Below, piece after piece: positions 54,405-56,549 of a stretch of 64,000 nucleotides of DNA (its first letter is position 1; each line of letters starts with the position of its first letter). Position numbers and translations under genes: made by a program. The notes beneath the pieces were generated by a model that was given only the letters and a program-made list of their open reading frames with translations, searched no databases and was not told where the DNA came from. Source of the stretch: Polyangiaceae bacterium (GTDB taxonomy: Bacteria > Myxococcota_A > Polyangia > Polyangiales > Polyangiaceae); the NCBI GenBank assembly GCA_025937835.1, contig JAICQO010000016.1:1-64000 (forward strand). Direction: 5' to 3'.

Positions 54405-54821
54405 ATGGCAGTCTCGAAAGCTCAAGCGAAGTGGACCGGCAACCTCAAAGAAGGCAACGGCTCGGTGAAGGGCACCGCCTTCGAAGCTCCGTTCACGTTC
54501 GCCTCTCGCTTCGAGGGCAGCGGCAAGGGCACGACTCCGGAAGAGTTGATCGGCGCGGCACACGCGGGTTGCTTCTCGATGTTCCTCGCGGCGCAGCTGA
54601 GCAACGCGGGTCACCCGCCCACCAGCATCGAAACCTCGGCCACGGTTCACCTCGAAGCCGGCCCGACCGTCACCAAGATCGAGCTCGCCACCCAGGCCAG
54701 CGTGCCCGGCGTCGACCCCAAGGTCTTCGAGGAGAAGGTGGCTTTCTCCAAGGCGAACTGCCCGATCTCGAAGGCGCTCGCCGCGATCCCCGAGATCGTG
54801 ATCGACGCGAAGCTCGTCTGA
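54405..54821 (+). CDS. osmC: OsmC-family peroxiredoxin
   Basis: 138 residues, close to E. coli OsmC in length, starting MAVSKAQAKWTGNLKEG with AAGGA about 12 bases upstream. Both redox cysteines are present, in GAAHAGCFSMFLAAQLS and FSKANCPISKAL. It should reduce organic hydroperoxides in the cytosol, often under osmotic or oxidative stress control. Single gene, followed by a strong hairpin. Confidence 0.93.
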   Translation: MAVSKAQAKWTGNLKEGNGSVKGTAFEAPFTFASRFEGSGKGTTPEELIGAAHAGCFSMFLAAQLSNAGHPPTSIETSATVHLEAGPTVTKIELATQASVPGVDPKVFEEKVAFSKANCPISKALAAIPEIVIDAKLV

Positions 54822-54887
54822 CGAACGCTTCGGGGGTCGGAGAAAAAGCCCCTCCCCCCCGATCCCCACTCCGCTCCCCCGTCCCCT

Positions 54888-54931
54888 GCGCGGTCCGACC
54901 GACGTCACCCACTGAGTCGGCCGGACCGCGC
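54888..54931. terminator. Strong inverted repeat, probable osmC terminator or first hairpin of a structured region
   Basis: Arms of 16 bases (54888-54903 and 54916-54931) pair with a single A/C mismatch around a 12-base loop; the outer arm is GCGCGGTCCG. It begins about 65 bases after the osmC stop. There is no T tract after it, so intrinsic termination is uncertain. Confidence 0.5.
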
Positions 54932-54975
54932 CCCCATCACACTCACTAACTGACTGCCGGCCTGAAGCTGACAGC

Positions 54976-55147
54976 CCCACAATCAAGTGTGGGAGCGACG
55001 CTGGCAGTTCGCGCGACTGGACACGCTTCTGCCAGCGCCGCCCCTCGGGTGTGTCCGCGCGTCGCCGACCACACCCCGTACAAGCGTTTCCGGACATCGG
55101 TAACGCGGGACACCATTAGACGAGCGGTGAGCGCGCCCGGCGCGCTC
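54976..55147. other. Run of five adjacent inverted repeats with no coding signal
   Basis: In order: 54976-54993 (CCCACA/TGTGGG); 54995-55007 with 55029-55041 (GCGACGCTGGCAG, one mismatch in 13); 55047-55053 with 55070-55076 (GGGTGTG/CACACCC); 55084-55092 with 55098-55106 (GCGTTTCCG, one mismatch in 9, 5-base loop); 55129-55147 (GAGCGCGCC/GGCGCGCTC). Back-to-back stems suggest a folded RNA or a palindromic DNA element. Which strand is transcribed, if any, is unknown. Confidence 0.4.
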
Positions 55148-55157
55148 CAATCCGCCT

Positions 55158-55195
55158 GCGGGTCCGCTCCGAGGTCTTTCCCGGAGCGGACCCGC
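55158..55195. repeat. Perfect 14-bp inverted repeat with 10-base loop
   Basis: GCGGGTCCGCTCCG (55158-55171) and its exact complement (55182-55195). The strongest single stem in the window. No T tract on either side, so not a classical intrinsic terminator. Confidence 0.7.
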
Positions 55196-55676
55196 CTCTC
55201 TCCACCCATACGGCGCTGTGCGCACCACCCACTCTGATCGCCGACACCCGGGACGCGGCGCGGAACACGCGCTCGGACGTCGATCCGGGCTCCCTTGTCG
55301 CGATCAGAAAACTTTTGGAAACACGACCCTCGCTGCGCGCGCCGGCTCGATTGAGCCGTTGCCGTTTGGCAGTGCGCTGAGAGGGCCCGTTGCATGTTTG
55401 GACTCTTGAGCAACGCTCGTGCCAGCGTTCCCGACGCCACCTCGAGCGAGCTCGGCGCACCGCCGCAGAGCCGCCACCACGCCGCAGCAGGACGAGCGAT
55501 GCGGAGCTTGCCTCAAGGGTTTCGAGGACTTGTCGCGGTTCGATCCGTCCGCGTACGAGCGTGTTCCCCGGCATCCGCCCCCGTGTCGGGCGGGGCACAA
55601 CCTGTATCTTTCGGAGATACAGGTGTATCAGCAGCTGTATCACTCGCTGCTCGAGCGGCGATGCTTGCCGAAGGCC
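55196..55676. other. Intergenic continuation with a long-range stem and a weak ORF
   Basis: CTGATCGC at 55234-55241 pairs perfectly with GCGATCAG at 55300-55307. Inside it, CCCGG with CCGGG and GACG with CGTC can pair too, giving a nested stem. CGGCTC-GATT-GAGCCG is at 55343-55358. A plus-strand frame from about 55419 to 55862 reads CGACLKGFEDLSRFD and LYLSEIQVYQQLYHSLLERR with GC-rich third positions before it runs antisense into the transglutaminase gene; it may be a relic. No recognised gene. Confidence 0.35.
55602..55622. terminator. Hairpin downstream of the transglutaminase operon
   Basis: Perfect 8-bp arms CTGTATCT and AGATACAG around a TTCGG loop. On the minus strand it lies about 55 bases after the operon stop at 55677 and could terminate it. 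The flanking T content is low. Confidence 0.45.
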
Positions 55677-56549
55677 TCAGGCGCGCGCCACTTCCACGCC
55701 CACCCGCACGAGATGCTGGCCGCCTCCGAGAATCACCCCGCGCAGCGGACTGGTGTCGCTGAAGTCGCGGCCCCACGCGAGCGTGACGTGCTCGTCGCTG
55801 GGGATGGAGCCGTTGGTCGGGTCGAAATCGACGAAGCCAAAACCCGGACACCAAGCCGATAGCCAGGCGTGCGAGGCGTCGGCACCGACCAGGCACGGCC
55901 GGCCGGGCGGCGGGGTGTTGTGCACGTAACCGCTGACGTAGCGAGCCGGGATGCCCAGGCTGCGCAGCATGCCGATCTGCAGGTGCGCGAAGTCCTGGCA
56001 GACGCCGCGGCGCGACTCGAGCACGCGATCGATCGGGGTCGCGATCGTGGTCGAGCCCGGCACGTAGGCGAAGTCCGCGTGGATCCGGCGCGTGAGCTCG
56101 AACACGGCGTCGAGCAGCGGCCGCCCGGGCGCGAACGATTGCGAAGCGTAGTCGATCAGCGGGTCTGCGCGGCGAACGTGCGGCGAGTCCAGGGTCAGCT
56201 CGAGCGCGCCCAGGCCCTCGGGGCTGCGATCGCGCCGGATCCGGTCGCGCACGCCGTCCCAGGCGGGCGACAACAGCAGCGCCGGTGGCTCGAAGGGCTC
56301 GAGGTCCACCTCGGAGATTGCGCTCACGGACAGCCGGACGTGCGCCTCTTCGAGGGTGAAGAAATGCACGACGTTGCCGAAGTAGTCCGTGTCCGAGGTC
56401 AGCGTGGGAGTCGAGGGCTCGACGACCAGCCGCGAGACGAGCGGCCGCTGGTGCGGGGTCTGACGCGGCACGAGGCGCGCCTCGTTGTGACAGATCGAGA
56501 CCGGCTCGCTGTATTCGTAGCTCGTGGTGTGCCGGACCAGATAGCGCAT
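55677..56549 (-). CDS. Transglutaminase-like protein 1
   Basis: 290 residues. N-terminal beta domain of the bacterial transglutaminase type (YLVRHTTSYEYSEPVSICHNEARLVPR), then the cysteine-protease-fold core with catalytic Cys in RRGVCQDFAHLQIGML (about residue 183), His in DASHAWLSAW and Asp in VDFDPTNGSIP. Ends GGGQHLVRVGVEV. Probably cleaves or forms amide bonds; the substrate is unknown. Its ATG overlaps the upstream ATP-grasp fusion stop (TAATG). Confidence 0.9.
   Translation of the reverse strand: MRYLVRHTTSYEYSEPVSICHNEARLVPRQTPHQRPLVSRLVVEPSTPTLTSDTDYFGNVVHFFTLEEAHVRLSVSAISEVDLEPFEPPALLLSPAWDGVRDRIRRDRSPEGLGALELTLDSPHVRRADPLIDYASQSFAPGRPLLDAVFELTRRIHADFAYVPGSTTIATPIDRVLESRRGVCQDFAHLQIGMLRSLGIPARYVSGYVHNTPPPGRPCLVGADASHAWLSAWCPGFGFVDFDPTNGSIPSDEHVTLAWGRDFSDTSPLRGVILGGGQHLVRVGVEVARA

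Follow-up and report, generated by a model that had tools for sequence, protein, structure and literature searches.

The gap of 855 bp (54822–55676) between osmC (54405–54821, plus strand) and a transglutaminase gene (55677–56549, minus strand) in a 64,000-nucleotide stretch of a Polyangiaceae genome (the window hereafter) raises the question of what a dense run of strong inverted repeats is doing where no gene is called. The initial annotation had proposed, for 54880–55360, a possible new structured RNA or DNA element, and it had placed the repeats correctly, in a gap without a called gene. The source genome (G000) is 6.9 Mb in size with a GC content of 68%, the members of the family being 12–16 Mb. 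We analyzed the repeats, their conservation and their surroundings, and here describe a candidate small RNA gene in the right part of the gap.

Results

The inverted-repeat cluster within 54880–55360 was confirmed, and 11 stems with 8 or more pairs and no more than one mismatch were found against a shuffle mean of 5.5, the largest number of such stems in 200 shuffles being 12. The length of the arms was beyond chance, as had been claimed: the longest reached 15 bp, compared with at most 12 in 200 shuffles, and stems of at least 12 pairs numbered 3 in the region, compared with a shuffle mean of 0.015 and a shuffle largest of 1. The stems found by the program included I1 (15 of 16 bp, 54888–54903/54916–54931), the core of I2 (12 of 13, 54995–55007/55029–55041), a stem of 8 of 8 (55129–55136/55140–55147) and P1 (14 of 14, or 15 of 16 if extended, 55158–55171/55182–55195), and the long-range stem with nested pairs was present as described, with 9 of 9 pairs at 55233–55241/55300–55308. 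The proposed folding check gave, for the whole region as RNA, z values of −7.0 on the plus strand and −7.7 on the minus strand, with none of 100 shuffles as low, and a scan with 120-nt segments located the fold signal in three separate places (around 54890–54930, 54990–55050 and 55110–55200).

The region split into a left part (54888–55147), which contains I1, I2 and the 8-bp hairpin, and a conserved module on the right (55158–55308). For the left part, no relative was found in a search of G000 itself and 59 related genomes. The I1 hairpin (54888–54931) lies 67 nt past the osmC stop and was not conserved, and the I2 hairpin (54992–55044) lies inside a stretch of 335 bp (54822–55156) that bears both I1 and I2 between osmC and the module, is missing from the related genome G004 and had no other match. 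In a sample of 756 kb of G000, the density of strong inverted repeats in convergent gaps was about seven times that in coding DNA (0.82 vs 0.11 per kb), indicating that a hairpin where convergent genes end is nothing unusual in this genome, and no other gap in the sample carried more than one such hairpin. I1 is thus well explained as a transcript end and is probably the terminator or transcript end of osmC, outside the RNA described below, and the hairpins of the left half are most likely mere transcript ends.

The search of the 59 related genomes yielded, for the right part, a 90-bp match in G004 (MAG ZC4RG46), directly downstream of the G004 osmC gene (blastn E 9e-12). It comprises P1, with invariant arms and a changed loop, an invariant CCACCCATACGG (plus strand) and the beginning of P2, and P1 lies in G004 18 bp past the osmC stop. 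The alignment of the RNA between the two genomes scored 70, compared with a shuffle maximum of 29. On the far side, the module is followed by the transglutaminase operon in G000 and by glmS in G004; since these neighbors differ, the module is not kept there merely through conserved flanking genes.

Among 108 family genomes, the linker pattern without mismatch occurred only in G000 and G004, which are the two certain members. There was no second copy in G000, and the exact P1 hairpin was found in no other family genome but G004, so that a repeat family was rejected. Linker-pattern matches with three mismatches in six other genomes were attributed to chance, as they had neither a P1-like hairpin module nor a sigma-54 site, and a covariance-model match in G014 (35 bits) was a hairpin resemblance only, also lacking a sigma-54 site. 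A scan of genome contigs for the linker-hairpin pattern returned 27 contigs, one of which was a confirmed relative (L138, which is G004); of the other 26, an Archangium match was inspected and not confirmed, and the rest were judged to be chance from their unrelated taxa. The search of Rfam 15 gave no match above the gathering score in the window and chance-level matches only in the region, consistent with the suggestion that the RNA is new.

G000 and G004 share a consensus of P2, P3, an unpaired GUAUGGGUGG and P1, amounting to 38 pairs, in which all 76 of 76 pair cells across the two genomes are standard. P2 is a long imperfect hairpin (55233–55308, minus strand), the basal helix of which is CUGAUCGC/GCGAUCAG in G000 and CCGAUCGC/GCGAUCGG in G004. 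P3 is a small conserved hairpin of 5 bp (GGUGC-N5-GC(G/A)CC; 55212–55226, minus strand). The single-stranded GUAUGGGUGG (55202–55211, minus strand) is identical in the two genomes and is a candidate seed or protein site. The terminal hairpin P1 (55158–55195) forms 16 pairs on the minus strand, with invariant arms and a variable loop. Covariation had been named as a check, and three pairs, all in P2, differed on both sides between the two genomes with pairing kept; with two sequences, 59 of 500 shuffles did as well, so that covariation gives weak support to the shared structure. The minus-strand reading kept all pairs, compared with 35 of 38 (G000) and 37 of 38 (G004) on the plus strand, and a U-G pair of P3 in G000 is possible on the minus strand only.

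We infer that the RNA starts 12 nt past the −12 element of the promoter described below (about 55398) and ends at the base of P1, which gives a proposed non-coding RNA of about 242 nt (55157–55398, minus strand) with a fold z of −4.8, the equal-length G004 segment having a z of −4.1. Its 5′ domain (55309–55398) was structured in both genomes, with sequence that could not be aligned. The 3′ end is uncertain because P1 is not followed by a U-tract, the minus-strand sequence past it being AGGCGGAUUGG, and a search for intrinsic terminators gave no site. A test for terminator hairpins after genes gave a weak signal (14 of 208, compared with 6 of 208 coding controls), and termination at P1 was thus not established.

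An exact consensus match to a sigma-54 promoter, TGGCACGAGCGTTGCT (−24 TGGCAC, −12 TTGC), was found at 55409–55424 on the minus strand, pointing into the module. TGGCACNNNNNTTGCW had one match in the 64-kb window, with 0.01 expected, and exact YTGGCACGNNNNTTGCW sites numbered four in the 6.9-Mb genome, including the promoter. The homologous site in G004 is TGGCACGTGGGTTGCT (L058, 4755–4770), and promoter and P1 are 266 bp apart in each genome, the DNA between promoter and P2 being unalignable. G000 has a sigma-54 gene (PF04552, E 5e-63). In eight genomes of the genus, the sigma-54 pattern gave 48 matches, compared with 17 for the reversed control, and 26 of 30 inspected sites were intergenic, 17 of these 26 having a gene start on the same strand no more than 120 bp away, indicating that such sites are usually real promoters. 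No same-strand gene lies downstream of the promoter, the next gene being osmC on the opposite strand. The right edge previously set at 55360 therefore cuts the element, as both the promoter and the upstream site at 55603–55641 fall outside it.

The RNA model matched none of the further sigma-54 sites that lack a called gene after them (L163, L164, L168, L171, L172 and L177). A second perfect site, TGGCACGCTGATTGCT (G000:C86:25404–25419; L174, 1501–1516), has a 14-bp hairpin, CGCAGCGAGGAGCT/AGCTCCTCGCTGCG, no more than about 120 nt downstream, with a convergent gene behind the hairpin. The site is located some 1 kb past the genes that come after the kinase-FHA-activator orthologue; it is possible that this site with its hairpin represents a second sigma-54 small RNA, or just the terminator of the convergent gene.

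Upstream of the promoter, a predicted activator-type site (55603–55641) consists of the palindrome TGTATCTTTCGGAGATACA (TGTATC-N7-GATACA, 55603–55621) and, beside it, extra TGTATC half-sites at 55624–55629 and 55636–55641. The center of the palindrome precedes the inferred RNA start by about 214 bp, and a homologous palindrome in G004 (TGTATC-N8-GATACA) lies about 176 bp upstream; sigma-54 activators bind at such distances. Each of G000, G004 and G001 has a single copy of the N7/8 palindrome. The G001 copy, the remaining intergenic one in the genus, is located about 50 bp before a kinase-FHA-activator gene, and a divergent sigma-54-like site with a single mismatch follows some 80 bp downstream of the palindrome. 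The remaining matches in the 108 genomes searched had no convincing sigma-54 site nearby. Besides the palindrome and the one-mismatch sigma-54 site, the G001 locus (L141, G001:C876, 1065–1540, minus strand) contains several stretches of the GGUGG type in what would be a leader or an RNA, and the predicted minus-strand product has a long stem, then TTTTTT, before a lipoprotein-like gene, divergently from the activator gene. The G001 RNA was rejected as a homologue, as it has no sequence similarity to the G000/G004 RNA.

A single protein encoded in L192 (3065–5305) combines a Ser/Thr kinase, an FHA domain, a sigma-54 activator and a Fis-type HTH. Full-length orthologues of this fusion were found only in G000, G001, G003 and G004 among the eight genus genomes, and they have the recognition helix TTRAQVYR in common. 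Because the palindrome adjoins its gene in G001, and from the distribution of the orthologues and the shared recognition helix, the kinase-FHA-AAA+ fusion at G000:C86 appears to be the best candidate activator, although it is not a proved one. In G000 and G004, the fusion gene is far from the RNA locus and has no palindrome of its own, and in G003 the fusion gene is present and the palindrome absent.

Discussion

The conserved structured module, the perfect promoter directed into it, the fixed spacing, the palindrome, the lack of a same-strand gene and the presence of a sigma-54 gene make it likely, as judged from sequence, that a non-coding RNA of about 242 nt is encoded on the minus strand from 55398 to 55157 and depends on sigma-54. 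The earlier idea of a new structured RNA thus holds for 55158–55308 together with the promoter to its right, where a fold far below shuffles, a structure kept with compensated pairs and a conserved, inward-pointing promoter come together. It does not hold for the left stems, which are unconserved and resemble transcript ends, and the cluster is therefore not one element.

It is unlikely, but to be weighed most seriously, that all the hairpins are only the transcript ends of osmC and the convergent transglutaminase operon and that no RNA gene exists. The high density of inverted repeats in convergent gaps and the closeness of P1 in G004 and of I1 in G000 to the osmC stop (18 and 67 bp, respectively) agree with this, and it probably holds for I1; P1 may also double as the osmC end. 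A terminator, however, needs neither a conserved linker nor a second, covarying hairpin, nor an opposing sigma-54 promoter at fixed spacing. It is highly improbable that the promoter drives a small protein or a gene leader instead of a functional RNA. Most sigma-54 sites of the genus do precede protein genes, and a frame is open through the RNA stretch in G000, but in G004 two frames are interrupted by stops and the conserved part contains single-base indels, so that no reading frame is common to the two genomes, and the next gene, osmC, is on the other strand. We regard as equally remote the explanation that the module acts as DNA, namely as a repeat, a recombination site or a protein-binding site: the invariance of the two P1 arms would suit a protein-bound DNA palindrome, but there is no further genomic copy, the G-U pairs fit a minus-strand RNA, and the promoter would be left without a role.

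If the locus is an RNA gene, the activated kinase-FHA-activator fusion would bind TGTATC-N7/8-GATACA and open the sigma-54 promoter, giving a structured transcript of about 242 nt that stops at P1 or past it. Through its exposed GUAUGGGUGG/GGGUGG stretch, the RNA would most likely pair with CCACCC-containing mRNAs, or else bind a protein. As the RNA runs toward osmC in G000 and G004 alike, it may also act on the osmC mRNA. It is a more tentative and rather doubtful proposal that the fusion itself activates a small RNA of its own by way of a palindromic operator used by no other gene. This would constitute a one-protein route from kinase signaling to riboregulation, and the RNA family would be a fast-evolving one in this myxobacterial genus.

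Sigma-54-dependent small RNAs are known in Gammaproteobacteria, such as GlmY/GlmZ, Qrr and CrcZ. The proposed RNA is like them in promoter class and in remote activator sites and a structured non-coding product, both of which are predicted here, and differs in organism and activator and in having no Rfam match. With intrinsic or bidirectional terminators between convergent genes it shares GC-rich hairpins past osmC, but it has no U-tract and has a conserved linker, a covarying second hairpin and a promoter. The nearest known analogue is Pxr of Myxococcus xanthus and other Cystobacterineae, an intergenic small RNA of about 108 nt with an apparent sigma-54 promoter, an upstream enhancer region and several stem-loops (PMC5568312, PMC5684412). 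Pxr adjoins the activator gene nla19, and its origin is placed at the base of the Cystobacterineae (PMC5568312). Both are myxobacterial and intergenic, with an apparent sigma-54 promoter, a putative upstream activator region and several stem-loops, and both are associated with an enhancer-binding protein gene, a candidate one in the present case. The RNA proposed here is longer, at about 242 nt, and has osmC and transglutaminase genes as neighbors, whereas Pxr is flanked by nla19 and an NADH dehydrogenase gene. Similarity to Pxr scored within shuffles in a comparison with the pieces of the gene printed in PMC5568312. Because it has no Rfam match and no similarity to these published pieces, the RNA probably represents a new family, of a known functional kind rather than a new kind of system.

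In the literature searched, Pxr is the described sigma-54-driven small RNA of myxobacteria and is regarded as restricted to another suborder. The set of sigma-54 activators is very large in myxobacteria, and the naming of a candidate activator and its operator makes the present idea directly testable. If it is true, a second, unrelated RNA in a different lineage would suggest that the coupling of small RNAs to sigma-54 activators had more than one origin.
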